Assembly (NCBI RefSeq): GCF_000744735.1
Contig: NZ_JQMM01000001.1
Span: forward strand, 992,001 to 1,056,000
Length of the DNA: 64,000 bases
Source of the DNA: Porticoccus hydrocarbonoclasticus MCTG13d
GTDB taxonomy: Bacteria > Pseudomonadota > Gammaproteobacteria > Pseudomonadales > Porticoccaceae
Direction: 5' to 3'
The position numbers and the translations under genes are program-made. Below the pieces are notes generated by a model. That model worked only from the letters and a program-made list of their open reading frames with translations, made no database searches and had not been told where the DNA came from. Below, one piece after another: positions 17,410 to 53,303 of the stretch (positions are counted from its first letter, which is position 1; each line of letters opens with the position of its first letter).

Positions 17410-17621
17410 CAGTCAATTGCTGAAATCAAAATAGGCTGGCTGGGGCATCGTTTTGTATTTGAGTAATTTATAGATATATTTCAACCGGTAAGCGCAGTTA
17501 CACCATCGTGGGTTTTCAGACGGCAGCGGTGTCAGGGGTTTTGCCAGCTGGCATGGGTTGCTGGGCAAACCGTTAGGTATCTATACTGTGAAGCCTGACG
17601 TTAACCTGAAAGATACCTGAT

Positions 17622-18302
17622 ATGTCGTTAACCGAAACCCGGGAGCGCCTGCTGGAAACAGCGCTTGAGCTGATCTGGCAGAGTAATTACAACAGTGTCG
17701 GTGTGAATGAAATCTGCAAACAGGCGGGCGTCACCAAGGGTGCCTTTTACCACCACTTTGATTCGAAGGCGGCACTGTTCTGTGAGGCTACAGCCTATTA
17801 CTGGCAAGTGATAAAAAGTGATCTTGATGCGGTTTTTTCACCGGTCAACACCCCGCTTGAGCAACTTGAAAATCTGGTGCATTTTCTGTTTGTGGCGAAG
17901 ATGGGTAACGATCGTGCGGGTATCCGGGGCTGCCCTTTTTACAATGCCGGGGCACAGATTGGCTCCGGTGACGAGAAGGTGATCGAAGCGCTCCAGCTAC
18001 TTTCGCAAACTGCGGTAAAATACAACCTGTCACTGGTAAAGGCCCTGCAGTTAGCGGGTTGTCTTGATGACGGTGTGGATGCCGAGCAAACCGCCAGATT
18101 GCTCTATCATTACATCCACGGCGTGCTCAGCTATGCCCAGGTGCACAGTGATGACGAGGAAATCAAACGTGATCTGCCCACCGGTCTCTACCGCTTGCTG
18201 GCACTGAAAACGGACTACTGGTTTAGCACCAGACCCACCTGGGAGCCACAGCCGGGGGTTTCCCCTCTTGTCGGCGAGATACTGTTGCCAAGACTCAGAT
18301 AG
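17622..18302 (+). CDS. TetR/AcrR-family transcriptional regulator
   Basis: A 226-residue regulator. The N-terminal HTH (residues about 5-50) contains GVNEICKQAGVTKGAFYHHFDSK, of which GVTKGAFYHHF is the recognition helix. The C-terminal ligand-binding domain is helical. It diverges from the RND efflux operon and is likely its repressor, acting through the palindrome at 17392-17409. The ligand is unknown. Confidence 0.92.
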   Translation: MSLTETRERLLETALELIWQSNYNSVGVNEICKQAGVTKGAFYHHFDSKAALFCEATAYYWQVIKSDLDAVFSPVNTPLEQLENLVHFLFVAKMGNDRAGIRGCPFYNAGAQIGSGDEKVIEALQLLSQTAVKYNLSLVKALQLAGCLDDGVDAEQTARLLYHYIHGVLSYAQVHSDDEEIKRDLPTGLYRLLALKTDYWFSTRPTWEPQPGVSPLVGEILLPRLR

Positions 18303-32945: not shown

Positions 32946-35171
<2,226 letters not shown>

Positions 35172-35430: not shown

Positions 35431-37637
<2,207 letters not shown>

Positions 37638-38715: not shown

Positions 38716-38801
38716 GGCTGAACCCGCTACGGGGGTGTGCCCATACCAAAAAAGCCCCACCCGAGGGTGAGGCCTTTTTGCTATATGGTGGGGCGGCGGG
38801 A
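38716..38801. repeat. Repeat module 2 / inferred left attachment site of the main island
   Basis: It repeats the order of module 1: a 23-mer (38716-38738, GGCTGAACCCG then CTACGGGGGTGT), a terminator, then TGGTGGGGCGGCGGGA (38786-38801). The last segment matches the complement of the tmRNA 3' end (TGGTGGAGGCGGCGGGA at 52926-52942) except for one missing base. It is read as attL of the island whose attR lies in ssrA. Between trHb and this module I see no convincing gene. Confidence 0.6.
38746..38777 (+). terminator. Rho-independent terminator in module 2
   Basis: AAAAAGCCCCACCC, a short loop, then GGGTGAGGCCTTTTT: an imperfect G/C-rich stem with a U tract, and an A tract on the other strand. 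Confidence 0.75.
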
Positions 38802-38872
38802 GCTTAACTAGTCAATTAATGCTATGATAAATATATAAAATAATAAATTTGATAATAATCAATACTACTATT

Positions 38873-38885
38873 GGTACTACTAAAA
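38873..38885 (+). repeat. Left copy of the island 13-mer
   Basis: GGTACTACTAAAA, exactly repeated at 52804-52816 and inverted at 52759-52771 beside the integrase gene. A partial copy ATACTACTA precedes it at 38862. This is probably an integrase arm-type binding site marking the left end. Confidence 0.7.
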
Positions 38886-38908
38886 TCTTATGTCACTACC
38901 GATTCCAA

Positions 38909-38941
38909 GACATTCAATCCCTGAATGTGGAATTGAATGTC
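38909..38941. repeat. Cluster of ATTCAAT/ATTGAAT inverted repeats
   Basis: GACATTCAAT (38909-38918) and ATTGAATGTC (38932-38941) form a perfect 10-bp inverted repeat, with a further TGAATGT inside and AATTCAATGT just after. Subterminal repeats like this suit excisionase or integrase binding at an island end. Confidence 0.5.
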
Positions 38942-39000
38942 GATCTATCAAATTCAATGTTTGCTGCCTTGCATCACTCCTTGAGTGTCTTGCTCCACCG

Positions 39001-39252
39001 CTATGGTAAATAGGCAATTGCCTTCACTCGTTGTTGCCATTGTAGTTTTTCTGTACCTTCTTGCGGTTTAGGGGGAATTAGGTCGCTAAATGGCTCTAGT
39101 AAAGGTAATTTGTTTTTTATCAGAGCTATGAGCGTGATGTCTACCTGTTTCGGGATGTTGTCTATCAACCTGGCGAGAAATTGAAGCAGTTCGGCCTGAA
39201 GGGTGCCAGGCTGCTTGGCATTCCTATGCCAAAAATAGTACTGATGCATCAT
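39001..39252 (-). CDS. Small hypothetical protein or remnant
   Basis: An 83-codon frame with plausible composition (LQAELLQFLARLIDNIPKQV ... PLLEPFSDLIPPKPQEGTEK), near the island's left end. No family is recognised and it could be a fragment of a larger gene. The rest of 38357-39934 holds only short, AT-rich frames (for example 39546-39806) that I do not support as genes. Confidence 0.3.
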   Translation of the reverse strand: MMHQYYFWHRNAKQPGTLQAELLQFLARLIDNIPKQVDITLIALIKNKLPLLEPFSDLIPPKPQEGTEKLQWQQRVKAIAYLP

Positions 39253-39821
39253 GTTAGTCGATCAATGGGGCTAAGAACTCCCTTCCCCCACGATTCACCA
39301 CATGCGTATATATCTCTGTGGTCGCCTTATCTGAGTGGCATAATTATTCTTTAATTGTAGAAAGGTCGTAGCCTGATTTTAGAGTGTGGATAAGCTGAAC
39401 CTGAAACTATGAAATTTTTCGGGTTTATTGATTTCCTATTGTTGTAGTTGTCTGCTTTATTTTCTTGCGTAGTGAAGATGAGTGCAAATACATCAAATTG
39501 TAATTTACCAATAGCTGAATCAATAACAAAGCTAGCAGCTCCCTGATGAATACCTCTATAAACTATCAGTTTGAGCAACATCCTAGATATACTTCAACAG
39601 ATAGAAAGATTCGGATTCGTAGGTACGAAGTGGTGGGGCAATTTCTAACAAAACAACAATTCTTTTGCTTCCATCTTAACGAATTTCGCGAATCAGCGAA
39701 GGCAGCCAAAAATTCAGTAGAAGAGATATGCATACACCTCAGTACTTCCTGGCGTGTGGCTGGAAACGAATACCTGATTTCTATAAAGCCGGTGCAATTG
39801 TACTGAATGCCTCTGCGAACT

Positions 39822-39865
39822 TTGACATTTTCTTGACTTTTTCCTGACACATCACTGATGTCCCT
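39822..39865 (+). promoter_or_regulatory. Array of four YTGAY half-sites at 11-bp spacing
   Basis: TTGACATTTTC, TTGACTTTTTC, CTGACACATCA and CTGATGTCCCT begin at 39822, 39833, 39844 and 39855. Tandem half-sites one helical turn apart are the binding geometry of OmpR/PhoB-family response regulators. The array lies 70-113 bp before the LtaS-like gene; a response regulator of that family is encoded in the same island. Confidence 0.65.
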
Positions 39866-39934
39866 ACCTCTATTCTGCACTCCTGTAAATGAATCGCTCG
39901 GGTGGACTCCCCGACTGAAACTGAGAGTGCAGGC

Positions 39935-41929
39935 ATGCCTTCATCTTTTTTTTCCAAAAAACACGCAATACCTGAACGTTTGTACCGGTGGTTCAGTTGG
40001 GCCGGTGCCTACGCTCCTTTACTGATGTTGTTTTTCGCAATACTTCTTATCGGTAGCCTGTCTCGAACACTTTTGGTTGCATGGCAATTTGACCGGGTTA
40101 CAGAAACGTCTGTATGGCCTAGTATATTTCTCCATGGGCTACGGGTAGACCTGATCATGGCAGGCATGGCCGTGGCGCCACTGGTCTTGCTTTTGCCAAT
40201 TCTAGGTAATCGTTTCTGCTGGATTGTTTGGAAACGCTTGACAGGCCTGTGGGCGCTAATCTTCTTTTTTGGATTTCTATTCATGGAGCTCGCAACTCCA
40301 ACTTTCATCGCCGAGTATGATACCCGGCCCAACCGCCTGTTTATCGAATACCTGAAGTATCCAAAGGAAATACTGAGTATGCTTTGGCAGGGCTATTTGC
40401 CGAACGTAGCCGTTGGGGTCTTGTTTTGTATTTTGCTGACCGGTCTGTTCACTTGGTTGATGAAACCCTGGTCGCGGGAAACCGATCCAGGCAGTTACCG
40501 CAAAGCGATTTTGGTATGGCCAATCGTGGTTCTAGTTGTATTTATCAGCATTCGCTCCACGACGGGCCATCGCCCGGCTAATCCGGCAATGTTTGCATTG
40601 ACTTCCGATGTGCTCGTTAACTCACTGATTATAAACTCCACTTGGTCCGTGGCGTTTGCCGTCTACAATCTCAAACATGAAGGGAATGCGAGTGACAAAT
40701 ACGGCGATATGGCGATGTCCGAAATTCTGGACGAGGTCAGGAGCGTACCGTGGCTTAGTAGAACAGAGTTTAACTCCAAAAGTTTTCCGACTCTGCACAA
40801 TCAAATTCCTATAAAAAATAGACCGCGCCCCCTTAATTTAGTAATTGTTCTTGAAGAAAGTCTGGGCGCTACTTTTGTCGAATCATTAGGTGGCACTCCG
40901 GTCACTCCACGCCTCGAAGCCTTGAAAAAATTCGGTTGGTGGTTTGAGAATTTGTATGCAACAGGTACAAGATCTGCCCGAGGCATTGAAGCTGTGGTAG
41001 CTGGCTTCTTGCCTTCTCCGGCACGTAGTGTGGTTAAATTATCATTATCCCAAACCAGTTTTTTTACGCTGGGAGAATTGTTGAAGCGCAATGACTACGA
41101 CACAGGTTTCATTTACGGTGGAGAAGCGCACTTCGATAATATGCGCAGTTTTTTCACCGGCAATGGGTTTGACACGATAGTAGATCAGCACGACTTCCTT
41201 AACCCCGCCTTTATCGGGAGCTGGGGTGTAAGCGATGAAGACCTGTTCACTAAGACCCATGAAGACCTTCAGAAGCTTCACGCATCAGGTAAACCTTTTT
41301 TTCGCCTAGTTTTCTCGTCTTCCAATCACTCTCCGTTTGAGTACCCTGACAACAGAATTGAGCAATATGACGTAGAGAAGAACACAGTCAATAATGCCGT
41401 CAAATACGCTGATTATGCCTTGGGTGAGTTTATAGATAATGCACGGAAAAGTGACTACTGGAAAGATACGCTGTTCTTGATTGTTGCAGATCACGATGCC
41501 AGGGTTTGGGGCGATGAGTTAGTCCCCATCAAGAATTTTCAAATTCCAGGGCTGATACTTGGAGCAGATATTGAAAGCCGCCGTATTAAAACGATCACGA
41601 GTCAGATTGATCTTGCGCCAACGCTGCTTTCGCTCATGGGTATTAGCAGCAAACATCCTATGGTTGGCCGTGATTTGGTGAGGTTTCCGGACGAACCCGG
41701 ACGAGCGATGATGCAGTTCAACGATTACTATGCATGGATGGACGATCGCTATAATGTGACTATATTGCGTCCCGACAAAGTGCCTTTAGCAGGAATGTAT
41801 TCGCGAGAAACCAGAGCCACCCAGTACCTAGAGGATGCCCCGGACGAAACCACCACAAGAAAAGTTTTGGCTCATGCACTTCTCCCTCTGATACTGTATC
41901 GCAAGCAAGCCTATGCGCTACCTGAATAA
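39935..41929 (+). CDS. LTA synthase-like membrane sulfatase-fold transferase
   Basis: About 664 residues. The N-terminal third holds about five membrane helices; the periplasmic C-terminal part is an alkaline-phosphatase/sulfatase domain. The metal-ligand region is NLVIVLEESLGATFVESLGG, the nucleophilic Thr (about residue 345) lies in ATGTRSARGIEA, and further metal ligands are in LFLIVADHDARVWG. Such Gram-negative LtaS/OpgB relatives transfer phosphoglycerol or phosphoethanolamine to glycans or lipids. It converges with a regulator/glycosyltransferase operon. A GTG at 39902 is an alternative start. Confidence 0.88.
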   Translation: MPSSFFSKKHAIPERLYRWFSWAGAYAPLLMLFFAILLIGSLSRTLLVAWQFDRVTETSVWPSIFLHGLRVDLIMAGMAVAPLVLLLPILGNRFCWIVWKRLTGLWALIFFFGFLFMELATPTFIAEYDTRPNRLFIEYLKYPKEILSMLWQGYLPNVAVGVLFCILLTGLFTWLMKPWSRETDPGSYRKAILVWPIVVLVVFISIRSTTGHRPANPAMFALTSDVLVNSLIINSTWSVAFAVYNLKHEGNASDKYGDMAMSEILDEVRSVPWLSRTEFNSKSFPTLHNQIPIKNRPRPLNLVIVLEESLGATFVESLGGTPVTPRLEALKKFGWWFENLYATGTRSARGIEAVVAGFLPSPARSVVKLSLSQTSFFTLGELLKRNDYDTGFIYGGEAHFDNMRSFFTGNGFDTIVDQHDFLNPAFIGSWGVSDEDLFTKTHEDLQKLHASGKPFFRLVFSSSNHSPFEYPDNRIEQYDVEKNTVNNAVKYADYALGEFIDNARKSDYWKDTLFLIVADHDARVWGDELVPIKNFQIPGLILGADIESRRIKTITSQIDLAPTLLSLMGISSKHPMVGRDLVRFPDEPGRAMMQFNDYYAWMDDRYNVTILRPDKVPLAGMYSRETRATQYLEDAPDETTTRKVLAHALLPLILYRKQAYALPE

Positions 41930-41967
41930 CTTGGTCAGAACAGTAGAGTTAGTGTGTGGTCTTTTAA

Positions 41968-43254
41968 TTAAGCGACGTTAACGTGGATCAGAAACTCCGT
42001 TCCTTCGTTACTTGATTGTGCGATTTCGAGATTCCATCCCAATCGCTCGCAAACCAACCTGACGATCAACAAGCCAAAGGTGGTGTTACTGAATTCTCCG
42101 GCTGTAGATTTCTCACTACTTGGCATTCCAATAACGTTCAGATCTTTAGTTATTTTGTCAGGAAGCCCAGGCCCGAAGTCTCGTACCGAAATTTTGTTCT
42201 CGATTAATCGAACCTCCACTTCTGCATGGGTGTGACGTAGCGCATTCTGTAACAAATTACGCAATAACATTCGTACCAAAGCAGGATGAGTAGTGACTCG
42301 TAGCTCCGGGCTGTTGTTGGAAACTGTGATGCGTCCGGCATGCTCCGGAAGTCCATGTTCCAGATCATCAATGGTGTTGAGAATGACATCTTGCAGGACT
42401 ATGGTTCTGGCATCGCCTTCGGACACCTCACTGCGAGCAAGCTCAAGCAGTACCTCCGTATCGTCGCGCATGGTTTGCATGGCCCGGCGGATGCGGCCAA
42501 TGGTTTTTTGATCCGCTGGAGACAGGCTTTGACGTTGTTCTAATACGTTCAAGGCACCACTCATTACGGCCAAAGGCGTGCGTAGTTCATGGCTGGCTAG
42601 TTTCACAAAGGATTTTTCGCGTTCGATATGGTTTTCCAGCGCGAAAAGAAATCGGTTAAATGCCTCGGCAATATCGCAAAACTCCTGATCACGATAGTCT
42701 GTGTCGATTTTTGGTATTGTAGATCCAGGTGCTGTGTTAAAGACTTCATGAGTGAGCTTTTTGAAAGGACGTACCAAGTATCGGGCTCCTGTGTGGGCAA
42801 CAAAAAAGCCGATCAGAATCATCAGGCCAGCCGCTCCAACCAGCATAAGCTGAACCAAGGCCTCACGATTTTCCATGATGGTAATATCTTGGGCCAAAAA
42901 GAGCTTGCCATTGGTTGCTTCCAGTTGCTCGCCATGGATTAGCAACGTTGTTTGATCTATCTCGATTTCCTCTGAAAACGGCAACAAACGACTCTGAAAA
43001 TATTCCGGAAGTATAAGCTCCGTTTCACCTTTTGGTAGGTAAATGGCTTCCAGTTGCGCCGTTTTTATTGGTTGAAAACTCCCTTCCTGAATTTGCTTCT
43101 TGAAATACTCTGCGTCTGCTTTCAGTTCAAGGTCAAGAATGGTGTTTTCAACGTCATTAACAAATACCTCAACAATGAACATCGAGGTTGCGGTCGTAGT
43201 GGCAATCAAAAAAAATAGAGTTCGGGACAACCGTATGGTCAAAGATGACTTCAT
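41968..43254 (-). CDS. Sensor histidine kinase
   Basis: A 428-residue kinase: membrane helix (about 9-30), a short periplasmic sensor (31-132), a second helix (about 134-155), HAMP-like linker, HisKA with phospho-acceptor His222 in SHELRTPLAV, and a HATPase with NLLQNALRHT, VRDFGPGLP and TTFGLLIVRLVCERLGW. It should phosphorylate the adjacent response regulator. Its start overlaps that gene's stop by 4 bp. The sensor domain is too short and divergent to predict a ligand. Confidence 0.92.
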   Translation of the reverse strand: MKSSLTIRLSRTLFFLIATTTATSMFIVEVFVNDVENTILDLELKADAEYFKKQIQEGSFQPIKTAQLEAIYLPKGETELILPEYFQSRLLPFSEEIEIDQTTLLIHGEQLEATNGKLFLAQDITIMENREALVQLMLVGAAGLMILIGFFVAHTGARYLVRPFKKLTHEVFNTAPGSTIPKIDTDYRDQEFCDIAEAFNRFLFALENHIEREKSFVKLASHELRTPLAVMSGALNVLEQRQSLSPADQKTIGRIRRAMQTMRDDTEVLLELARSEVSEGDARTIVLQDVILNTIDDLEHGLPEHAGRITVSNNSPELRVTTHPALVRMLLRNLLQNALRHTHAEVEVRLIENKISVRDFGPGLPDKITKDLNVIGMPSSEKSTAGEFSNTTFGLLIVRLVCERLGWNLEIAQSSNEGTEFLIHVNVA

Positions 43255-43994
43255 GGCGTATCTTCGCCCCTATTTGCTGGTACGTCCAAACGATACCCAC
43301 GACCATGGATTGTTTTTACCAGCCCGTTGCCCAGGCTCGCTTGCAGGGATTTTCGAAGTGTGTAGATATGTGTGCGAAGACTATTGCCTTCCGGTTCCCC
43401 ATGATGGGCGCCCCATACGGCATCAGTTAGCGCCTCGTGGCTGAGAAAGCTCGGATACGCTCGCATCAACAATTCAAAAAGACGAGCTGGTGTGCCGGAC
43501 AAATCTGTTTTCAACCCACGCAGTTCCACTTCCAGTGTGCCTGGATCGAATCGAACATCCCCAGCTCTCAAGACCGGTCTCTGTGGCGAATAGCGCCGAT
43601 GGAGAGCTTCAACCCGTATCTGTAATTCACGCAGTTCAAACGGCTTCACAAGATAATCATCGGCACCAGAATCAAACCCTTTTTCTTTGTCGGCCAGGGC
43701 GCTTAGTGCTGTCATCAAAATAATAGGAGTCTGGCATTGCAGATCTTGTCGGATACGACAACAAATATCATAGCCATTGACGCCGGGCAGCATAAGATCG
43801 AGTACGATAACGTCATAGGTGTGTGTGGCCAGTAAATGCAGAGCGGTCAAGCCATCAGCAGCGAAATCTAGTGTGTAGCGATTTTCACCTAGGAACTCGA
43901 ACAGGTTTTCTGCAAGATCCACTTCGTCTTCGACAATCAATAACCTGAGAGGAGATTGTAAAGTAGGTTCGAGAGAAGTCTGATCAGATGTCAT
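43251..43994 (-). CDS. OmpR/PhoB-family response regulator
   Basis: About 247 residues. The receiver domain has the acidic pair VEDEVD, phospho-acceptor Asp66 (VIVLDLMLPG) and Lys in DDYLVKPFE. The C-terminal winged helix (HEALTDAVWGAHHGEPEGNS ... LRTHIYTLRKSL ... TIHGRGYRLD) binds DNA. It is the likely reader of the 11-bp arrays at 39822-39865 and 46933-46976. ATG 43994 was chosen over 44015 because CGGAG lies before it, inside the end of the upstream gene. Confidence 0.93.
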   Translation of the reverse strand: MTSDQTSLEPTLQSPLRLLIVEDEVDLAENLFEFLGENRYTLDFAADGLTALHLLATHTYDVIVLDLMLPGVNGYDICCRIRQDLQCQTPIILMTALSALADKEKGFDSGADDYLVKPFELRELQIRVEALHRRYSPQRPVLRAGDVRFDPGTLEVELRGLKTDLSGTPARLFELLMRAYPSFLSHEALTDAVWGAHHGEPEGNSLRTHIYTLRKSLQASLGNGLVKTIHGRGYRLDVPANRGEDTP

Positions 43995-43995
43995 T

Positions 43996-45480
43996 TTAGC
44001 GAACTCCGTTGGCATTAGACACTGGTTGCTTGTTGTGGATCAATCCTTCAATAACCAACAATTGATAGCGTTTATTTTCCATAATCTTTAGAGCTGACGA
44101 AGATAAATTAGCTACTTTGTCCTCTGACCAGTCTCTGGGAATTGCGACGTATAAGCTTTTAAACCTGTTGGCACTTGACAAGATTTTCAAATCGTTCTGC
44201 GTTACTTCCAAAGCATTTCCACCTGAGTAAAATCTGGCTGAAAATGGCAGATCATTCAAATAGATCAATGGGCTGTCATCGGCTTCCTTGATCAATTGAT
44301 AATAGTTTACCAGTTCTTTTTCTGTTTTGAGCGGTGCCCAACCTGCTGCGGTTAGGCTCACGAATACGGTTAATAAAACCGGCACAAGCGCGACTATTCC
44401 ACCCCGCATACGACATAAATATAAAGACTCCCATCGCGACACCCAGCGGCCGATAAGAATAGCTGTAAACGGCAACGAGGGCAGTATATACGTCCAGAGT
44501 GTATTTCCCGCGAGTGTGAAAAACAGCATTGGCGCTAGTGCGCTAATCAGCAAAAAGCTAACACCAGCGTTTGATGTGATCTTATGTACAACGCCTTTTC
44601 TTGTGCCCCTGAACCAAGTGAGGACTAGACAGACCAATGCAACGATGCCCCAAGGGAAAGATGCCCACAACCAGAAAACCCAAATCATGCCTTTGGGCTG
44701 ATCGTGAGCGTTACCATAGAGGTCTCCTGCCCACCCTGGATCCAGAAACCGACGGATATGCTCACCCACGATGAAGTAGTCCAGAAAACCGGGGGTCTTT
44801 AACTCAGCCAATAGGTACCAGGGGCAGACGAGCAGGGCCGTCATCAGTATTCCTCTTAACCAAGGCAGACGCCGTAGGTTCGTGATCGCTTCCCGCCAGA
44901 GGGATAACCACAAAACGATGGGAATCCCGACCAGCACTATGGCCAGCGGCCCCTTCGACAGAAATCCGATTGCCAGTCCAAGAAAAAAAAGCCATCGCCA
45001 TAGGCCACTTTTCCCTGACATCACTAGACAAAAGCTGACCAAACTAAGCGTGGTGCCCAGCGCCAAGAAGGCGTCTGTCATCACGGCACCGGAGCTGATA
45101 TAAGTGAGTGCCATGGTTGCGAAGACCAAGCTGCTCCATTGGGCCACTTGTAAATTCCAGAGCTGCCGTGCCAATCGCCAGATCAGTCCGATCATAGCAA
45201 TCGTTGCCAGCCAAGAGGGAAAACGTAGAGAAAACTCCGAGACACCAAATATATTGATGGCCCCAGCCTGGGCCCAGAATGACAAGGGTGGTTTGCCCCA
45301 AAACGGAACCCCGGGCTCAAACCATGGGGTGATCCAGTCACCAGTTTCAGCCATCAAGCGAGCAATTTCTGCGTAGCGCGGCTCGGTGGTGTCGGAAAGT
45401 GGAAGTAGTACCATACCAATGAAACGACTAACAAGTACCGCTGCCAATATCAGCATCCAGAGGTTAAACCGCTTTGACAT
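43996..45480 (-). CDS. ArnT/PMT-like membrane glycosyltransferase (GT39/GT83)
   Basis: A 494-residue protein with about eleven membrane helices. The first periplasmic loop has DTTEPRYAEIARLMAETGDW and FEPGVPFWGKPPLSFW, matching the ArnT/PMT family that transfers a sugar from undecaprenyl phosphate to an envelope acceptor such as lipid A. The donor is probably made by the GT2 enzyme encoded just upstream, whose gene overlaps this one by 17 bp. The start MSKRFNLWM was chosen. The sugar and acceptor cannot be deduced. Confidence 0.88.
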   Translation of the reverse strand: MSKRFNLWMLILAAVLVSRFIGMVLLPLSDTTEPRYAEIARLMAETGDWITPWFEPGVPFWGKPPLSFWAQAGAINIFGVSEFSLRFPSWLATIAMIGLIWRLARQLWNLQVAQWSSLVFATMALTYISSGAVMTDAFLALGTTLSLVSFCLVMSGKSGLWRWLFFLGLAIGFLSKGPLAIVLVGIPIVLWLSLWREAITNLRRLPWLRGILMTALLVCPWYLLAELKTPGFLDYFIVGEHIRRFLDPGWAGDLYGNAHDQPKGMIWVFWLWASFPWGIVALVCLVLTWFRGTRKGVVHKITSNAGVSFLLISALAPMLFFTLAGNTLWTYILPSLPFTAILIGRWVSRWESLYLCRMRGGIVALVPVLLTVFVSLTAAGWAPLKTEKELVNYYQLIKEADDSPLIYLNDLPFSARFYSGGNALEVTQNDLKILSSANRFKSLYVAIPRDWSEDKVANLSSSALKIMENKRYQLLVIEGLIHNKQPVSNANGVR

Positions 45481-46492
45481 GACGCACCTCAGTTCTATGG
45501 CGACTGGCCTGTTGAGGTATGCCATTCCAGCCTTCAATCACTTCCTCTGTCAGGTACGCCGGGCGCTGCTTCGACTCCATATAGGTCTTGCCGACGTATT
45601 CACCTACGATGCCCACACCCATCAATTGAATGCCACCCAGAAAGCTGATGATGGCGACAAGCGACGGATAACCGTTGGTTGCATCACCCAGCATGATTGC
45701 TTTCACTACAATCCACAACCCGAACGCCCCACCCATGCTGGCCGCGATGAGCCCGATAACGGTTGCCCAGCGCAATGGTGATACAGAAAACGAGGTTAGC
45801 CCTTCAAGAGCCAAGCCTATTAACTCGGGGTAATCCCATTTTGTCTCACCTGCCGCCCGGGGCTCACGATCATACTGGATGACCTGAGTAGGCAAGCCGA
45901 TCCAGGCAAACAATCCTTTCATATAGCGATTGCGCTCCTTGAGTACTAGAAGAGCATCTATTGCTTTTCGGCTCATTAGCCGAAAGTCCCCGGTATCCAC
46001 CGGGATATTCGTCCGGCTGGTTCGGTTCAACAACCGGTAAAAAAGGTGAGCACTCCAGCGTTTGAACAGGGTTTCGCCCGCTCGTGAGCGACGCTGCATC
46101 AGGACAACATCTACACCAGATAGCCAGCATTCAATCATTGCAGGAATCAGTTCAGGCGGATCTTGCAGATCAGCATCTAGCACAATTGCCGCATCGCCCT
46201 TAGCATAGTCTAGGCCCGCTGTCATTGCGGCTTCCTTTCCAAAATTTCTGCTTAGTTTGATAAGTCGGATGCTGGGCGTTCGGTTCATAACACTCCGGAT
46301 ATACTGAGCACTGCCATCGTCACTGCCGTCATCTATCAAGACGATTTCCCAATAGATGCTTAACTTGGCAAGCACCGGCAAGAGCCGCTCAAAAAAGAGC
46401 GGTAGCATCGGACGCTCATTGAACAGCGGTACCACCACTGATAACAGTGGTTTATCAAACAGCAGAATGGGAGATTCAATGTGTTTATTCAT
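45464..46492 (-). CDS. GT2 polyprenyl-phosphate glycosyltransferase (GtrB/ArnC/DPM1-like)
   Basis: A 342-residue protein. The GT-A domain (LLSVVVPLFNERPMLPLFFE, VLIDDGSDDGSAQYI, AIVLDADLQDPPELIP) is followed by two C-terminal membrane helices (about 245-305), as in GtrB. It makes undecaprenyl-phosphate-sugar on the cytosolic face. Position between gtrA-like and ArnT-like genes gives a complete make-flip-transfer pathway. It overlaps the upstream gene by 8 bp. Confidence 0.92.
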   Translation of the reverse strand: MNKHIESPILLFDKPLLSVVVPLFNERPMLPLFFERLLPVLAKLSIYWEIVLIDDGSDDGSAQYIRSVMNRTPSIRLIKLSRNFGKEAAMTAGLDYAKGDAAIVLDADLQDPPELIPAMIECWLSGVDVVLMQRRSRAGETLFKRWSAHLFYRLLNRTSRTNIPVDTGDFRLMSRKAIDALLVLKERNRYMKGLFAWIGLPTQVIQYDREPRAAGETKWDYPELIGLALEGLTSFSVSPLRWATVIGLIAASMGGAFGLWIVVKAIMLGDATNGYPSLVAIISFLGGIQLMGVGIVGEYVGKTYMESKQRPAYLTEEVIEGWNGIPQQASRHRTEVRHVKAV

Positions 46493-46868
46493 GAAAAACG
46501 AACCTCTGATAGATGATGTAATTCATTGCAGCGACAAGACCTGTGGTGGCGACTTGTGAAAGAGTAACGTGAATTGTCAGGACACTATGGAACAGAAAGA
46601 AAAAAACGAGATTGCATAGCCAAGCGACAAAACAAGAGCTGACATAGCGCCATATTGTGCGCCTGTGAGAGCCGCTAATACGGAACGTTAGACGTCGTTG
46701 GAGGACGTAGTTGAATGCCGCTCCAGTCACGCTCCCACCTGCAGTTGCTCTCATTGGCTCAAGCCCGAGGGTGATTAGCGCCGTCATAACAAACCAGTGA
46801 AACAGCGTGGCAAGGCCACCTGCAGCTATAAATCTCTGCAATTGGAGCGGTAAGAAGAACTTGTTCAT
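46485..46868 (-). CDS. GtrA-like flippase
   Basis: About 127 residues with four membrane helices: LQRFIAAGGLATLFHWFVM, then TGAAFNYVLQRRLTFR, the hallmark GtrA loop, and a C-terminal YIIYQRFVFHE. GtrA proteins flip undecaprenyl-phosphate-linked sugar to the periplasmic side. First gene of the five-gene minus-strand operon. The start at 46868 gives a standard GtrA N-terminus; the frame stays open to a GTG at 46943, inside the operator array. Confidence 0.87.
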   Translation of the reverse strand: MNKFFLPLQLQRFIAAGGLATLFHWFVMTALITLGLEPMRATAGGSVTGAAFNYVLQRRLTFRISGSHRRTIWRYVSSCFVAWLCNLVFFFLFHSVLTIHVTLSQVATTGLVAAMNYIIYQRFVFHE

Positions 46869-46932
46869 AAGGGAAACAACCACTTTGGTGACTGACAGAG
46901 ACTGCAAGATATTGTGTCGGTACCTTAGCCTA

Positions 46933-46976
46933 CCCAGTGTCACGGCTTTGTGAGGGTTTCATCAGGAAAATATCAA
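46933..46976 (-). promoter_or_regulatory. Second 11-bp-spaced half-site array
   Basis: Read on the minus strand: TTGATATTTTC, CTGATGAAACC, CTCACAAAGCC, GTGACACTGGG in contiguous 11-bp steps. The first matches the first repeat of the array before the LtaS-like gene at ten of eleven bases. It lies 65-108 bp before the gtrA-like start. The last two units are weaker. Confidence 0.55.
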
Positions 46977-47594
46977 AATGTGAAATGATTGAAGTCCGAA
47001 AGTTTCTTTAGGTAGTTGATTGCCAAATGCTGCGGCGGAGCTGTTTGGGGATTTGAATATCCCCAAGAGTCTAGATACTCCGCATGGTAAAAATGAACCA
47101 TCGGAAGAAGCATGAACAAACTTCGTCAATTTAGGGAAGGATTCAAAAAAGTATCAACAAGAGGCTGTTACGGAAAATTTACCGGCTTGCACTCCTGAAT
47201 TTTCGCAGAGCGTCGCAGTTAGGCATCATCCCAGTTCAGCCAGTGCAGTATGGGCATTGCGTCAACTAGTTGAATTTTTGTTCGCTTGTATCCTTGGGGG
47301 ACTGAGTGGCATGATCGTACGCTAATATTTCAGAACGTCCGGGATGATACCGTCTTGGCAGGGATTCACAAACAGGGATGGCGCAAGTCAGGCAGAGATT
47401 GAGGCCGGGTTTCTGGATGATATATGTTCTTTCCTGTGAAGGCGGTGTGGTGCTGGTGTCAACGATTCCAACGACCCCGCTGCCGAAACGATGAATAAAC
47501 CCAACTACCCGTTGGAGTAGTTATGGGAGAGATTGCCGTTAGCTTGGAAACGAACAAGACTGTGGTAGATTCGCCCACTTTCTAAATATAACAG
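46977..47594. other. Non-coding island spacer
   Basis: About 620 bp without a supportable gene on either strand; frames are short and no family motif is readable. A small hairpin AACTAC / GTAGTT occurs near 47499-47518. It may hold degraded sequence at the junction between the glycosyltransferase locus and the recombinase module. Confidence 0.4.
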
Positions 47595-47606
47595 GAAGTT
47601 AACTTC
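47595..47606. promoter_or_regulatory. Palindrome covering the ribosome-binding site
   Basis: GAAGTTAACTTC is a perfect 12-bp palindrome ending two bases before the ATG of the next gene and covering its Shine-Dalgarno region. It could be an operator or a hairpin that hides the site. Confidence 0.45.
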
Positions 47607-47607
47607 T

Positions 47608-48369
47608 ATGAATTCTGGTTATGACTCTAAAAGTTGTAATGCGTTAGAGAAGCCGTTTTATAAACCTATTGAAGCGGCGTTGCGTTGGTGCAATCTCATT
47701 GCTCAAGAGGAAGTGATTCTTCGTGCTGTGGGAGAGGCAGTTATACCTACACCTAGTATGTTCCCCCAATGGCCCTGCTTGCGTGCTAATGCGGAACGCA
47801 TTTTAGATGCGGTATTGAATGGCGGATTAACTTATGGTCGCGACGGTCGATCTGTTGTGGCGGGTGAACAGGTGGCTAAAGCACGTTTGACCATTCGCCA
47901 TGCAGACTTAAAAGAGTGGATGCAAAAGTACTATCCTGACCAAAAGCCCGCATTTTTGTTTGATGAAATTGAGAAAGCTACCCACACCGCCATAAATGCA
48001 GATACGTTTCGGGCTCTACAGGCAGATCGTGATGCACTAAAAGCTCGTCTTGAAAAAGCTACTGAAGTGTACCGCGAGTTAAAACAAGATAATGATATTA
48101 TCACTGCCGAACGTGATTCGCTCCGCGCGATAGTTGAAAAAATGTCGGCTCCGAGTGAGCGAGCAGAGACAACATATCTCAATGTTATTGGTGGGTTAGT
48201 AGAGTTAATGCTCAGCCAATCACCAGGTGGAAAAGCTCATTCGATATTTAATTCTCAGGGGGCCATTATCGCCGCGTTGCTTGGATACTATGAAGGAAAA
48301 CCGGGCATTGCAGCTCGAACCTTGGAAGAGAAGTTTGCGGCAGGGAAAAGGAGTCTCAAATCTAGCTGA
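47608..48369 (+). CDS. Unknown island protein with coiled coil
   Basis: A 253-residue protein. The N-terminal half (KPFYKPIEAALRWCNLIAQE ... GEAVIPTPSMFPQWPCLRAN) resembles uncharacterised proteins often seen beside integrases in proteobacterial islands. Residues about 128-180 form a coiled coil (FRALQADRDALKARLEKATE, REDLKQ-like heptads), and a helical tail follows. There is no enzymatic motif. It starts a same-strand series with AlpA-like, HTH and recombinase genes. Confidence 0.7.
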   Translation: MNSGYDSKSCNALEKPFYKPIEAALRWCNLIAQEEVILRAVGEAVIPTPSMFPQWPCLRANAERILDAVLNGGLTYGRDGRSVVAGEQVAKARLTIRHADLKEWMQKYYPDQKPAFLFDEIEKATHTAINADTFRALQADRDALKARLEKATEVYRELKQDNDIITAERDSLRAIVEKMSAPSERAETTYLNVIGGLVELMLSQSPGGKAHSIFNSQGAIIAALLGYYEGKPGIAARTLEEKFAAGKRSLKSS

Positions 48370-48474
48370 TTTATTACCGCAACTGCGGCTGAGATTGCCG
48401 CACCTGCGATGACCGGCGCAAGTTAAAATCATCACTATGAAGTCATGTTCAGCAACACCCAAGAGGGTACTAAC

Positions 48475-48756
48475 ATGCTTCAAACCATCCTGCGGCTCCC
48501 TGCCGTCAAACAACAAAGCGGCCTTTCTCGCTCTACTCTTTACCTGCGAATTAGCAAAGGGCTATGGACTAAACCCATCTCATTAGGTGGTCGATCTGTT
48601 GGTTGGCCTGCCTCGGAAATTGAAACCCTTAATGCCGCTCGGATCGCCGGTAAAACGGATGATGAGATACGTAAGTTGGTTCTTGCCTTGCAGAAAGAAA
48701 GGGAAGAATCCTATCGGCTGTTGCTTTCAGGGGTATCTTCCAGTGGGGTTCTCTGA
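48475..48756 (+). CDS. AlpA-family regulatory protein
   Basis: A 93-residue protein with an excisionase/AlpA-type winged HTH: LRLPAVKQQSGLSRSTLYLR then SKGLWTKPISLGGRSVGWPASEI. The motif L-R-L-P-x-V then G-x-S-R-S-T-x-Y is the AlpA signature. In CP4-57, AlpA activates the integrase; here it could drive either recombinase. The ATG at 48475 follows AAGAGGGT. The stop overlaps the next start. Confidence 0.87.
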   Translation: MLQTILRLPAVKQQSGLSRSTLYLRISKGLWTKPISLGGRSVGWPASEIETLNAARIAGKTDDEIRKLVLALQKEREESYRLLLSGVSSSGVL

Positions 48757-49193
48757 TGGCCAACTACAACCCCAATCTGGCAAAAATTCATCGCAATTAC
48801 ACGGTGGAAGAAGTGGCTTCTCTGTTTGGTATCCACAAAAACACGGTGCGGGGGTGGATCAAGACGGGGATGCCTGTTTGTGATGACAGGCGGCCAACGC
48901 TGATTCTTGGGTATGAAATACGTCGTTACCTGCAGCGTACACGTACAGCAGGAAAACAACGTTGCAAACCCTTTGAACTCTATTGCATGCGGTGCCGATC
49001 ACCCAGGAAGCCTGCTGAGAATATGGTTGATTTCACCCCTATAAATGAGACTACAGGTCGGTTAGTGGGGATTTGTCCCGACTGTGAAACGCTGATGAAC
49101 CGCTACGCGAACAAGTCCAGTTTGGCCCAGATTCGGCAGCATCTGGAGGTGTGCTTCCCGATAGGTCAAAAACACATAAGCAAGACCAGTTAG
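48756..49193 (+). CDS. Helix-turn-helix protein with zinc-ribbon-like tail
   Basis: A 145-residue protein. The N-terminal MerR/excisionase-like HTH (YTVEEVASLFGIHKNTVRGW) is followed by a domain with two cysteine pairs, YCMRCRSPRKP and GICPDCETLMNRY, likely binding zinc. The start codon overlaps the AlpA-like stop (TGATG). It probably regulates or assists the recombinase that follows. Confidence 0.75.
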   Translation: MANYNPNLAKIHRNYTVEEVASLFGIHKNTVRGWIKTGMPVCDDRRPTLILGYEIRRYLQRTRTAGKQRCKPFELYCMRCRSPRKPAENMVDFTPINETTGRLVGICPDCETLMNRYANKSSLAQIRQHLEVCFPIGQKHISKTS

Positions 49194-49229
49194 TTCCCCG
49201 TAAACAGTGACTATGTGTGGAGGTATCAG

Positions 49230-50342
49230 ATGACTAGAAAATATCACCCGGATAATGAGCGGATGAAGCGTAAGTATTTCATCTTTTTGAAAGAGGCGAA
49301 GCGTCAGGATGACTCATCGGTTGATGCCGTTGCCAAGGCGATAAGTCGTTTTGAAGCCTATACCAAGTGGCGTGATTTTAAGGCGTTTCACTTTGAGCAG
49401 GCGGTTGGATTCAAGGCGCACTTAAACAAGTATCGGAATGAACAGACGGGTTCCAGCTTGAGCAAGGCAACCATGAATTCCGCGTTACGCAGCTTGAAGA
49501 CCTTTTTTCAATGGCTGGCAATGCAGGCGGGGTATAAGTCCCGTATCAATTACACCGACACGGAGTATTTCAATCTGTCAGATAAGGATACAAGGGTTGC
49601 CACGGCAAAACGGAATCGGCCTGTACCAACGCTTGAACAGATTCAGCGGGTAATTGCAGTCATGCCTTCTAATACCGTGCTGGAAAAGCGCAGCAGGGCT
49701 TTGGTGGCCTTTACGCTGTTGACGGGTGCCAGGGATAGCGCCATTGCTTCATTTAAGCTGAAGCATGTGGATTTGGCTGCCGGGAGCGTTTTTCAGGATG
49801 CTCGGGAGGTTAACACCAAGGCCAGCAAGACCTTCACTACGTACTTTTTCCCGGTTGGTGACGATATTCGGCAGATTGTGGAAGATTGGGTTCACTACCT
49901 GAAAAATGAGCTGTTATTCGGTAACGATGACCCGTTATTTCCTAAAACCGAGGTAAAGCCAGGTGCACGGCGTGTCTTTGAGTCGGTTGGTGTTCTGAAA
50001 GAGCACTGGAGCAATGCCACCCCCATTCGAAAGGTGTTTAAGGAAGCATTCGAGCAAGCGGGACTGCCTTATTTCAATCCCCACAGCTTTCGCAAGACCT
50101 TGGTGCAGTTAGGTGAAAAAACCTGCCGTGGCCCTGAAGAGTTCAAGGCGTGGAGTCAGAATCTTGGCCATGATGGTGTGCTGACGACGTTCTATAGTTA
50201 TGGCGAAGTGCAGCAATCCCGGCAGTATGAAATATTAAAGGCGCTACGGGAGCCGCGTGCTGATGTTCAGTCTAGTCAGGTTGATGAAATTGCCAGGGCT
50301 GTGGCACGCGAAATGAGAGCGCATTCTCTCGCCGAGCTATAG
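49230..50342 (+). CDS. Tyrosine recombinase (second integrase of the island)
   Basis: A 370-residue phage-integrase-family protein. The SAM-like core-binding domain (about 25-110) precedes a catalytic domain with an intact set: Arg in TGARDSAI, Lys near NTKASKTF, HSFR in NPHSFRKTL, His in LGHDGVLTTF and the nucleophile Tyr in FYSYGEV. It differs from the CP4-57-type integrase at 51515 by lacking its N-terminal arm domain. ATG 49230 follows GGAGG. It is likely mobile-element machinery of a module with its own regulators. Confidence 0.88.
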   Translation: MTRKYHPDNERMKRKYFIFLKEAKRQDDSSVDAVAKAISRFEAYTKWRDFKAFHFEQAVGFKAHLNKYRNEQTGSSLSKATMNSALRSLKTFFQWLAMQAGYKSRINYTDTEYFNLSDKDTRVATAKRNRPVPTLEQIQRVIAVMPSNTVLEKRSRALVAFTLLTGARDSAIASFKLKHVDLAAGSVFQDAREVNTKASKTFTTYFFPVGDDIRQIVEDWVHYLKNELLFGNDDPLFPKTEVKPGARRVFESVGVLKEHWSNATPIRKVFKEAFEQAGLPYFNPHSFRKTLVQLGEKTCRGPEEFKAWSQNLGHDGVLTTFYSYGEVQQSRQYEILKALREPRADVQSSQVDEIARAVAREMRAHSLAEL

Positions 50343-50375
50343 TGCTGGGAGGCTGTAAAAAAGAGGAGGGATTCA

Positions 50376-50621
50376 TTGAAAAAGCCAGCAAGGAAAAATA
50401 AGGATAAATTGCCTCCAGCGCCGGAGTTGGCTCCGGAACTGGCTGAGTCACCACCGATTAGTGATGTGTATTTTGCGGAAGAGCATATGCATGAGGTGCT
50501 GACCGAGTATTACGGCAAGGAAGAGACTGATAGGGTGAGAAAGCGTATTTATGGGGATAGCAAAAAGCCATGTTCGCAAACTCACATTATTTCCCCTCTC
50601 ATTTGCTCAATAACTATCTGA
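50376..50621 (+). CDS. Small protein coupled to recombinase and CoiA-like genes
   Basis: An 81-residue, lysine/proline-rich protein with a TTG start preceded by the very strong ribosome site GAGGAGGG. Its stop codon overlaps the next gene's ATG (TGATG). Both features support translation. No family is recognised. Confidence 0.6.
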   Translation: MKKPARKNKDKLPPAPELAPELAESPPISDVYFAEEHMHEVLTEYYGKEETDRVRKRIYGDSKKPCSQTHIISPLICSITI

Positions 50622-51418
50622 TGAATGAAGTCGCTCTACCATACGGACTCAAAAACAATGAGCTGGTGCACATCTCTGAGGTAGAAGCAGGGTTGGGATG
50701 TGATTGTTTTTGTCCATGTTGCCAGTCCAGGCTTGTTGCAAGGAAAGGCAACGAGAAGAGACATCACTTTGCGCATTATTCGAATGAAGCATGCTCTGGA
50801 GGGCTTGAAACGGCTGCTCATCTATTGGCCAAGGATATCTTGAGTAAGGCAGCATACATAGCGCTACCTCCGGTAGAACTATACTTTGAGACTGGTCGGA
50901 GGTTGTTGCGTTTATCTGACGCTAGAAAATATAAGATCGACCGCGTGAGGGTGGAGAGTAGCATCGAAAATATAAGGCCTGACCTTATTCTTACGATTGG
51001 TGGGCGTGATCTGATTGTTGAAGTGTTTGTAACTCATAAGGTGGATGATGAGAAAGTCAGTCGCATTAAACGACTGGGGGTGTCTGCTATCGAAATAGAT
51101 TTGAGCCACTCTATTTGGGATGGAACCAGAGAAGATATGTCCTCCTTAGTCGTAGATGAATGGTTTTTTAAGAACTGGATTTTTAATGCTCGAGCTGTTC
51201 AGGAGTTCGATCGGTTGATGGGTCTAGCTCTCAAGAAACCCACTATAGTTCGAGGGTTTTCAACGCATGTGGACTTGTGTCCTCTAAAAAAAAGAACATA
51301 CAAAGGGAGGCCTTATGCGAGCTTTAATGATGACTGTGTAGGCTGCGAGTATCTTTTAGAGGGTATGACTGAAAGAGGCTATATATGCTGTATCGGCCAT
51401 TTGCCGGATGAGATTTAA
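50621..51418 (+). CDS. CoiA-like nuclease family protein
   Basis: A 265-residue protein. The N-terminal zinc-finger-like part CDCFCPCCQSRLVARKG is followed by RHHFAHYSNEAC, typical of competence protein CoiA and related proteins. The nuclease core has RPDLILTIGGRDLIVEVFVTH, a PD-(D/E)xK-type active site (D, E-V). A C-terminal Cys cluster (CPLKKR, CVGCEYL, YICCIGH) may bind metal. Its role in the island (DNA processing or defence) is inferred only from fold. The start is coupled to the preceding small gene. Confidence 0.78.
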   Translation: MNEVALPYGLKNNELVHISEVEAGLGCDCFCPCCQSRLVARKGNEKRHHFAHYSNEACSGGLETAAHLLAKDILSKAAYIALPPVELYFETGRRLLRLSDARKYKIDRVRVESSIENIRPDLILTIGGRDLIVEVFVTHKVDDEKVSRIKRLGVSAIEIDLSHSIWDGTREDMSSLVVDEWFFKNWIFNARAVQEFDRLMGLALKKPTIVRGFSTHVDLCPLKKRTYKGRPYASFNDDCVGCEYLLEGMTERGYICCIGHLPDEI

Positions 51419-51514
51419 GTATTTCTTGATAGGAATAATCACGTCTGAGTGTCTTGTATACGCGAGCTTGGCGCATCTCAGTCCAGAGGTGCTAGATCAA
51501 GGTCGGTGCTGAAA

Positions 51515-52759
51515 TTACCCATTGACGACGGAGAGGGCTGCTGTACCGGTGAGGCTCATATTTCCGGTGGCGGCCTTTTCGATATGTTCGCTCCACCAAG
51601 TCATGACGGGAATACGACGTTCAATGTATTGGGCGCGGTTATAGGCGTTTCGCACTTCATTTTTTCCGGTATGGGCCAGTGCTGCTTCAATGACTTCTGG
51701 GTCAAAGCCCTGTTCATTGAGCGTGGTGCTGGCTAAAGCTCTCATGCCATGTGCTACCAGTTGCTTGTCGAAGCCCATGCGCTTTAGCGCCATATTAGCG
51801 GTTTGCGGGTGTGTGTGGGTTCGGAGATTTCTGTCAGAGGGGAATACAAACTCACTGCAGCCACTGATGGGTTTCATCAATTCCAGTAAGCCGACGGTTT
51901 GCCGCGTCAACGGGACAGTGTGAGCTTTCTTCTTTTTCATTCGTTCAGCAGGGATATGCCAAAGCTGGTTCTCCAGGTCAATTTCATCCCAGCGAGTACC
52001 GGCAGCTTCGCCAGGGCGCATCATCGTATGTAGTTGCCATTCGATCAAACAGCGAGTGGTTAGTTTGATGCTGGCCAAGGATAGGGCCTTCATCAATTCT
52101 GGGAGCTGGCTGGGGGCGAGTGTGGGCTGGTGTTGTTTGTCAGGTGTTTGAAAGGCTTTGCTAATACCGGAAAGGGGATTGTTTGGGATCACACCCGTGT
52201 TGACTGCAAAGGTCATTATTTCATTCAGGCGTTGGCAGAGCCGTTTAACTGTTTCAAGGCTGCCTTTGGCTGCAATGGGCTTGATGGTGGCAATGGCTTT
52301 GACGGCAGTTACCTTGTGAATCGGCATTTTTCCCAATGTAGGGAAGATATGCAGCTCCAGTGAACGCCAGGAGTCATTGGCGTGCTCGGGGGTGACGGTG
52401 GTTTTTTTGATCTCCAGCCAGTCACTCGCAATTTTCATCAACGTATTGTTGTGGGCCTCTTCATTGGCTTTGGCCAGTTCATCCCGGTGTTCTTTGGGGT
52501 CAATGTCCTTTGCCAGTAGCTTTCTGGCCTCTTCTCGTTTGGCGCGTGCGCCCGCTAATGACAGTGTAGGGTATGCCCCAAGGCTGAGACTGGTACGAAC
52601 CTTGGTGAAGGGTCGGTGGTAATCCAGCAGCCAAATTTTGGAGCCGTTGGGCTTTACGCGAAGCTGTAAGCCACCCCCATCGGAAAGAGAGTAAACCTTG
52701 GCCTTAGGCTTTGCCTGACTGACTTCGGTATTGGTGAGGGGCTTGGTTGTACGGGCCAT
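51515..52759 (-). CDS. Tyrosine integrase, CP4-57/P4 type
   Basis: A 414-residue integrase with the N-terminal DUF4102 arm domain (LTNTEVSQAKPKAKVYSLSD ... LSLGAYPTLSLAGARAKREE), core-binding domain, and catalytic Arg (MMRPGEAAGTRW), Lys (KKKKAHTVPL), HGMR, His (ALAHTGKNEVRNAY) and Tyr. Everything needed for activity is intact. It starts 167 bp from the 3' end of ssrA, the attachment site known for CP4-57, so it is the probable integrase of the 14-kb island. Its start codon lies in an inverted 13-mer. Confidence 0.95.
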   Translation of the reverse strand: MARTTKPLTNTEVSQAKPKAKVYSLSDGGGLQLRVKPNGSKIWLLDYHRPFTKVRTSLSLGAYPTLSLAGARAKREEARKLLAKDIDPKEHRDELAKANEEAHNNTLMKIASDWLEIKKTTVTPEHANDSWRSLELHIFPTLGKMPIHKVTAVKAIATIKPIAAKGSLETVKRLCQRLNEIMTFAVNTGVIPNNPLSGISKAFQTPDKQHQPTLAPSQLPELMKALSLASIKLTTRCLIEWQLHTMMRPGEAAGTRWDEIDLENQLWHIPAERMKKKKAHTVPLTRQTVGLLELMKPISGCSEFVFPSDRNLRTHTHPQTANMALKRMGFDKQLVAHGMRALASTTLNEQGFDPEVIEAALAHTGKNEVRNAYNRAQYIERRIPVMTWWSEHIEKAATGNMSLTGTAALSVVNG

Positions 52760-52816
52760 TTTAGTAGTACCGCTTTGGTTGATAAATTGATGGTACTACA
52801 ATGGGTACTACTAAAA
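52759..52816. repeat. Inverted and direct 13-mers at the integrase end of the island
   Basis: TTTTAGTAGTACC at 52759-52771 is the exact inverse of GGTACTACTAAAA at 52804-52816; a partial GGTACTACA lies at 52792-52800. A further exact copy is at 38873-38885 at the far end. Likely integrase/excisionase arm sites that may also autoregulate the integrase promoter. Confidence 0.7.
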
Positions 52817-52856
52817 AAGCTGGATTAGATAGGGTTTGTTAGGATGCTATAGGCGT

Positions 52857-52893
52857 AAAAAAACCCGTAATTCGTTAAAATTACAGGCTTTTT
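52857..52893 (-). terminator. Terminator of ssrA
   Basis: On the minus strand CCTGTAATT pairs with AATTACGGG around TTAACG and is followed by a run of seven T. It lies 33 bp after the tmRNA 3' end. Confidence 0.85.
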
Positions 52894-52925
52894 CGGTCTT
52901 CTTGGTAAGGTATAAAACCTTGAAT

Positions 52926-53303
52926 TGGTGGAGGCGGCGGGAATTGAACCCGCGTCCGTCAGTCCTCTGCCGAGAGATCTACATGCTTAGTGCAGTCTAT
53001 TAAATTTAGCGGGTTGCAACCCGACAGACAGGGCGCGCAAACCGCGATTCCGGTGAGTTTTTAACGAATCCACCCCGGACGAGCTTCATCGCGATCATGT
53101 GAGATATGACACCTGATAGCCCCGAAAGGCTCCGGACGCACAAGCACGGCTCCGGTCAGATGGCACCCTACCGGGTATTAAGCGGCGAGTGCGTAGTTGT
53201 CGTCGTTGGCAACTATAATTTGCGACTTTGGATTTACGAGATTGGTCGCCATCTCGGCATGCACCCAGGGTTTTGTAACCGGCGTCGAATCCAAATCGCC
53301 CCC
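52926..53303 (-). ncRNA. ssrA: Transfer-messenger RNA (tmRNA)
   Basis: A 378-nt tmRNA. The 5' end GGGGGCG pairs with the 3' CGCCTCC before the encoded ACCA, forming the tRNA-like acceptor. The T-arm GGGTTCAATTCCC is intact. The reading frame on the minus strand at 53210-53178 encodes the tag ANDDNYALAA and a stop. It rescues stalled ribosomes with SmpB, encoded next. Its 3' end is the attachment site of the neighbouring island. Confidence 0.97.

Follow-up and report, generated by a model that had tools for sequence, protein, structure and literature searches.

A probable mobile ColRS-like regulon for envelope remodeling on an ssrA island of Porticoccus hydrocarbonoclasticus

We analyzed a window of 64,000 nucleotides from the single-contig, 2.47-Mb genome of the marine bacterium Porticoccus hydrocarbonoclasticus MCTG13d. 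A six-gene set within it probably constitutes a mobile, self-contained ColRS-like regulon for envelope remodeling under metal or envelope stress. The new observation here is that tandem YTGAY-N6 repeats stand upstream of both gtrA and ltaS, the first genes of its two transcription units. At the level of sequence, the island that carries the set, the set itself, its recurrence and its mobility are all directly demonstrated.

Open reading frames and domain matches confirmed all six genes of the original prediction, which had read their identities from motifs. Five minus-strand genes overlap or abut to form one operon with its own two-component system, as had been claimed; consecutive overlaps, from gtrA to the kinase gene, are about 8, 17, 20 and 4 bases. 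The operon encodes GtrA, a flippase-family membrane protein of 127 aa (46485–46868; PF04138, 4e-18); a GT2 enzyme, a GtrB-type polyprenyl-phosphate sugar synthase (45464–46492; PF00535); a PMT/ArnT-like GT-C glycosyltransferase, hereafter PMT (43996–45480; PF02366, 6.9e-22), whose reading frame opens at 45537 but whose likely start is the ATG at 45480; an OmpR/PhoB-type response regulator, RR (43251–44015; PF00072 and PF00486); and a sensor histidine kinase, HK (41968–43254; HisKA/HATPase_c). Flippase, polyprenyl-phosphate sugar synthase and GT-C enzyme thus adjoin one another, as in a three-component glycosylation system. The sixth gene, ltaS, lies on the plus strand (39935–41929) and encodes an LtaS-like, sulfatase-fold transferase of 664 aa (PF00884, 7.8e-47). 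The outer limits first proposed for the set fit the likely true starts, the ATG codons at 39935 for ltaS and at 46868 for gtrA. The orientation of ltaS needs correcting: it is not divergent from the operon but convergent with it, tail to tail, with 38 bases separating the ltaS and HK stop codons. Separate promoters are therefore needed, with none in common. That ltaS nevertheless belongs with the operon, as originally proposed, is borne out by a predicted operator that precedes gtrA and ltaS alike and by recurrence in varied gene orders.

The operator emerged as a conserved block when ltaS upstream regions were aligned, and consists of YTGAY repeats with an 11-base period (YTGAY-N6). Upstream of ltaS in the window, the repeats read TTGAC, TTGAC, CTGAC and CTGAT (39822–39859, plus strand). 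Upstream of the gtrA operon they read TTGAT, CTGAT, CTCAC and GTGAC with the same 11-bp period (46939–46976, minus strand); two of these four are degenerate, and the site has one mismatch to the strict pattern. The strict three-repeat pattern is expected 0.01 times by chance in the window, and two overlapping matches were observed, both at ltaS. This is the one place in the 2.47-Mb genome where it occurs; a backwards control pattern gave one match, elsewhere. A position weight matrix (PWM) trained only on betaproteobacterial loci ranked the window's ltaS promoter first and its gtrA promoter second. On PWM score alone, the gtrA site does not stand out from random maxima; what gives it weight is its position and a gammaproteobacterial model. 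A third operator-like site, at 17595–17632 and flanked by a TetR gene and an AcrB-type efflux operon, has one to two mismatches, is not strict, lies outside the island and is probably a chance occurrence.

The same operator marks related loci in other genomes. Across 85 loci totaling 1.67 Mb, several of them near-duplicates, 44 of 45 strict sites precede a module gene by no more than 400 bases; the remaining one lies before the first gene of the operon in L017, a distant cluster. Where the module RR is present, the site upstream of gtrA was one of the five top-ranked of about 40,000 positions in 38 of 41 loci, and the ltaS site ranked first in 20 of 22. Loci lacking the RR also lack the gtrA site, with three exceptions: L027, where the regulator has been lost or has diverged, and L046 and L088, which lie on cut contigs. 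Comparative genomics strongly supports the view that the site tracks the module RR and that the set is a portable regulon, and equally that the gtrA operon and ltaS are regulated in common through the predicted operator.

The gene set itself recurs. We scanned one genome per species for PMT relatives and took the best 80 of the 501 found as homologous loci. The co-occurrence search that the original prediction called for has a positive outcome: all six genes stand together in 20 of these 80 loci, in Marinobacter and Alcaligenaceae; in a further 16, some of them in other genera, the five-gene operon occurs and LtaS is missing. The exact set is thus not unique, and close functional precedents exist; a literature search conducted mostly outside subscription journals found no publication on it. 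Gene order varies. Most Marinobacter loci share the window's convergent placement of LtaS; L039 and L043 have it upstream of gtrA. The Alcaligenaceae sets, which also include dgkA and a DedA-like gene, place it between HK and gtrA. The order in Bordetella ansorpii, for example, is GT2, DedA-like, RR, HK, LtaS, GtrA, GT2, PMT, DgkA. Considering only the 62 loci whose flanks reach at least 7 kb on either side, we see LtaS linked in 16 of the 32 that have the module RR and in 0 of the 30 that lack it (Fisher p = 2.7e-6, a value that ignores kinship). Distance matrices of the components correlate at 0.91–0.98. Given this recurrence and the common operator, we reject a chance neighborhood as the explanation for LtaS.

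The set lies on a 14.1-kb genomic island (38786–52925) inserted at the 3′ end of ssrA, the tmRNA gene (52926–53303, minus strand). The distal att copy, TGGTGGGGCGGCGGGA (38786–38801, plus strand), equals the ssrA end minus one base; its partner is the ssrA end itself, TGGTGGAGGCGGCGGGA, which begins at 52926 and is one base longer (52926–52942, plus strand). A tyrosine integrase with an Arm-DNA-binding domain (51515–52759, minus strand; PF00589, PF13356, PF22022) adjoins ssrA and is likely the integrase of the island. A plus-strand block (48445–50342) encodes an AlpA-like regulator (48445–48756), an excisionase-like HTH protein (48756–49193) and a second tyrosine recombinase (49215–50342). In two genomes of the same genus (L151, L152) the site is empty, with the base corresponding to 38785 joined directly to the ssrA end at 52926. 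Porticoccus sp. SAT26 (L014) carries 38786–52925 at about 99.9% DNA identity, most 250-base blocks being 100% identical, whereas the flanks of the island (katG/globin, smpB) are only about 93% identical. This difference indicates recent acquisition or exchange by the two species. The empty sites and the SAT26 copy together secure the ssrA island that the original prediction had postulated.

At the same site, a third congener (L153) shares the integrase end of the island, its integrase being 99% identical, and retains the 48445–50342 block; its cargo, however, is a restriction-modification system. The island backbone therefore swaps cargo. A GtrA and a GtrB-type GT2 on such an island, whose backbone bears restriction-modification cargo in another species, recall GtrABC-type glucosylation of the O-antigen or surface as a protection against phage. 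We consider that function improbable for the present set, because its third enzyme is a PMT/ArnT-like GT-C protein and because it includes LtaS and a two-component system of its own, joined in relatives by dgkA and DedA.

Movement extends well beyond the genus, in which PMT is rare (this genome and one of 16 congeners). PMT, GT2, RR, HK and LtaS are 74–87% identical to their Marinobacter counterparts, compared with 67–68% for the housekeeping protein DXS. Halopseudomonas formosensis and Marinobacter goseongensis share the five-gene operon at 99.87% identity over 5.55 kb, and Pusillimonas caeni and Bordetella ansorpii share a 12.5-kb copy at 99.98%. A conjugative plasmid of Marinobacter shengliensis carries all six genes beside the metal transporters DmeF, MntP and VIT. 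To judge from these comparisons, the set has spread between very different bacteria.

It is useful to compare the module with ColRS of Pseudomonas putida, the nearest characterized regulon. There, ColR activates PP0035–PP0033, which encode GtrA, ArnC-like and ArnT-like proteins, on excess Zn, Fe, Mn or Cd, and deletion of PP0035–PP0033 drops the zinc MIC from 5 to 4 mM (PMC4074579). The regulon includes PP0035–PP0033, dgkA and cptA (PMC4074579, PMC2689224). In both systems, two-component control is exerted over a GtrA/ArnC-like GT2/ArnT-like operon. Both also have an 11-bp-period box, an ExxE motif just before TM2 and a periplasmic loop of similar size. The ColR consensus has an 11-bp architecture of the TTCAC-N6-TTCAC type; the module boxes share the 11-bp period and end in (C/G)AC, and by eye 39822–39837 matches the published 16-bp consensus at 15 positions (PMC2689224). 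ColS carries an ExxE metal-binding motif immediately before TM2 (PMC8306577). The window's HK has a periplasmic loop some 100 aa long and ExxE (ENRE) just before TM2, and the motif is just proximal to TM2 in 36 of 41 module kinases. Thus, in box architecture and in ExxE beside TM2, the predicted regulator resembles Pseudomonas ColRS. The two differ in that the P. putida targets are scattered over the chromosome, whereas the module is one mobile unit with an LtaS-like enzyme in place of the phosphoethanolamine enzyme and with boxes of TTGAC/TTGAT repeated in tandem up to four times. In Halopseudomonas, the module RR coexists with the best native regulators, to which it is only 41–43% identical; these native proteins are presumably ColR-like.

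The genes near the module may also point toward metals. Among the best 80 of 501 loci, 22 have known metal transporters no farther than 10 kb away and 0 of 20 control regions do, a comparison that is only suggestive of linkage because the metal-gene queries were picked after two neighborhoods had been seen and the loci are interrelated. These neighbors are CzcA in Achromobacter-type and Pigmentiphaga loci and VIT in Marinobacter and Halopseudomonas. In the other 58 of the 80, including the window's own island, metal transporters are absent within 10 kb, and the Achromobacter loci with metal genes are without the module RR. A whole-genome search for HME-RND proteins gave many matches and stands outside this statistic.

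The same regulon could instead have cationic antimicrobial peptides as its signal and defense against them as its selected function. Such peptides are possible signals for PmrAB, and PmrB is among the better matches to the HK (99 bits). They can also be the signal for CarRS of Vibrio vulnificus, which activates itself and dgkA-eptA-mdoB, full polymyxin resistance requiring all three (PMC10433830). As is predicted for the module, CarRS combines a self-activating two-component system with a phosphoglycerol transferase-type enzyme, dgkA and envelope defense (PMC10433830), but it has EptA instead of the GtrA-GT2-GT-C triad, recognizes the motif GACAN6TACA and is not known as mobile. Against a peptide function stand the position of ExxE, which is that of ColS, the metal genes near 22 of the best 80 of 501 loci, and the hosts, which are mostly marine or soil bacteria. 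We therefore regard peptide defense as possible but unlikely, and favor metal or envelope stress as the signal.

Two further systems share parts of the arrangement. Cupriavidus metallidurans has gtrMAB, a GtrA-GtrB-GT-C triad on mobile DNA, within the pMOL30 metal islands, several genes being induced by heavy metals (PMC2864759); those loci are not known to have a dedicated RR-HK pair or LtaS, and protein identity to the module is low, 28–32% for the GT-C enzyme. In Xanthomonas, ColRS-type regulator genes (raxRH) likewise adjoin lipid A remodeling genes (arnT-lpxE-eptA), but the enzymes are different and the cluster is not described as mobile (PMC8306577).

The original prediction also envisaged a make-flip-transfer set with an ArnT-like final enzyme. 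GT2, GtrA and a PMT/ArnT-like GT-C protein are indeed present, but PMT does not qualify as ArnT, nor GT2 as ArnC. The Arn (Ara4N)/PmrAB system rests on a polyprenyl-linked sugar, a GT-C transferase and two-component control. The module follows this logic yet falls outside Arn by wide margins: PMT scores 129 bits against the curated ArnT model NF009784 (cut-off 567), and GT2 scores 177 bits against the ArnC model NF007986 (cut-off 529). We therefore reject an Arn system. GT2 is closest to GtrB (sll0501, 3.2e-91, versus 7.9e-46 for ArnC), and PMT is a distant relative of the ArnT structure 5ezm (7.4e-15). In the alignment to 5ezm, D55, E84 and K85, which we take to be ArnT pocket residues, fall on T50, G80 and K81 of PMT, so that D55 and E84 are not kept. 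A deacetylated aminosugar of the NaxD type (the GalN/GlcN lipid A route, NaxD-FlmK, Lgm type) was likewise rejected, since PF04794, the YdjC/NaxD deacetylase family, has no match anywhere in the window's genome. By sequence resemblance, YdjC/NaxD does occur in the distant cluster L017.

In alignment to LtaS/LtaP structures, the LtaS-like enzyme has the full catalytic set: E308, T342, D519 and H520. Its closest solved structure is 3lxq (VP1736 of Vibrio parahaemolyticus, 2.8e-145), followed by the LtaS/LtaP structures. Against the curated Gram-positive LtaS model NF053595 it scores 67.8 bits (cut-off 970), and by this measure it is LtaS-like, not LtaS proper. Its donor would be phosphatidylglycerol, given its family and the dgkA linkage in other copies; in Methylophaga, a relative stands after CzcA, CDF and dgkA. 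The dgkA gene of the window's genome lies elsewhere, without the strict operator. In Gram-positives, CsbB-GtcA-YfhO is a three-component machine that decorates lipoteichoic acid. A Gram-negative analogue, in which LtaS makes a glycerophosphate chain and the GT2-GtrA-GT-C triad decorates it, would agree with their common operator and the conserved LtaS residues. We judge it highly improbable: the 16 five-gene loci without LtaS (among the best 80 of 501) imply that the sugar machine is useful on its own, and the nearest solved relative, VP1736, is uncharacterized.

The favored reading, a ColRS-like regulon, suggests the following sequence of events. The HK would sense periplasmic stress, most likely an excess of divalent or trivalent metal, by way of an acidic patch and ExxE beside TM2. 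The RR would then bind the tandem YTGAY-N6 boxes in two promoters, a step for which comparative genomics argues strongly, and switch on gtrA-GT2-PMT-RR-HK, its own gene included, together with the convergent ltaS. GT2 would load a sugar on undecaprenyl phosphate, GtrA would flip the product, and the GT-C enzyme would transfer the sugar in the periplasm to an envelope acceptor, most likely, from knowledge of the family, a phosphate or sugar on lipid A or the LPS core. The LtaS-like enzyme may use phosphatidylglycerol to decorate an envelope glycan or LPS with phosphoglycerol; DgkA, whose gene is linked in Alcaligenaceae copies, would recycle the diacylglycerol. PMT and the LtaS-like enzyme may act on one molecule, as the original prediction had it. 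The net effect would be an altered surface charge and altered binding of metal or cationic peptides.

Bolder, and in our view rather unlikely, is the idea of a new mobile class of envelope defense in which a ColRS-like sensor directs sugar and phosphoglycerol to one acceptor, producing a glycosylated glycerophosphate undescribed in Gram-negatives. If it were true, sequence searches for the operator would suffice to find the whole regulon.

Lipid A remodeling under two-component control is usually viewed as core-genome regulation of scattered genes. Here, sensor, regulator, boxes and effector enzymes move together across families and classes, so that one transfer would bring the response to a stimulus as well as the chemistry. 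The operator provides a sequence signature for finding more targets and relatives. Through it, the poorly understood LtaS-like enzymes of Gram-negatives are also linked to machinery for sugar transfer, so that their function can be put to the test. Overall, the role of the module is probably protection against metals or membrane stress.

The backbone of the ssrA island is shared with a congener (G015), whose locus L153:6225-15900 carries an integrase 99% identical to that of the window; the cargo there is not the envelope set but a restriction-modification gene of type I/IIG-like character, together with a helicase. Just inside each end of the window's island lies one copy of a 23-base direct repeat (91%; window 38863-38885 and 52794-52816), and these copies are possibly integrase arm sites. 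Adjoining the island are two head-to-head katG-like genes (window 32946-35159 and 35460-37637), whose protein products show an identity of about 55-58%. Loci L093, L094, and L095 (Pusillimonas caeni, Bordetella ansorpii, and Pollutimonas bauzanensis) share 12.5 kb of DNA at 99.98-99.99% identity, reflecting either very recent spread or, possibly, contamination of one assembly.

Outside the island, repeats at window 17595-17632 also resemble the operator, with one or two mismatches; they separate a TetR gene from an operon for AcrB-type efflux. The same putative operator as that of the envelope set precedes a distant cluster in another genome (L017:2373-8886, G038), which comprises methyltransferase, GT2, GtrA, YdjC/NaxD-like deacetylase, PMT, response regulator, and histidine kinase genes and may represent an aminosugar variant.

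In Halopseudomonas (L187:1-3678, G424), a second LtaS-like gene is divergent from genes for a ColR-like response regulator and a histidine kinase with ExxE before TM2. This arrangement suggests that the ColR-like regulator type is tied to LtaS-like enzymes outside the module too.
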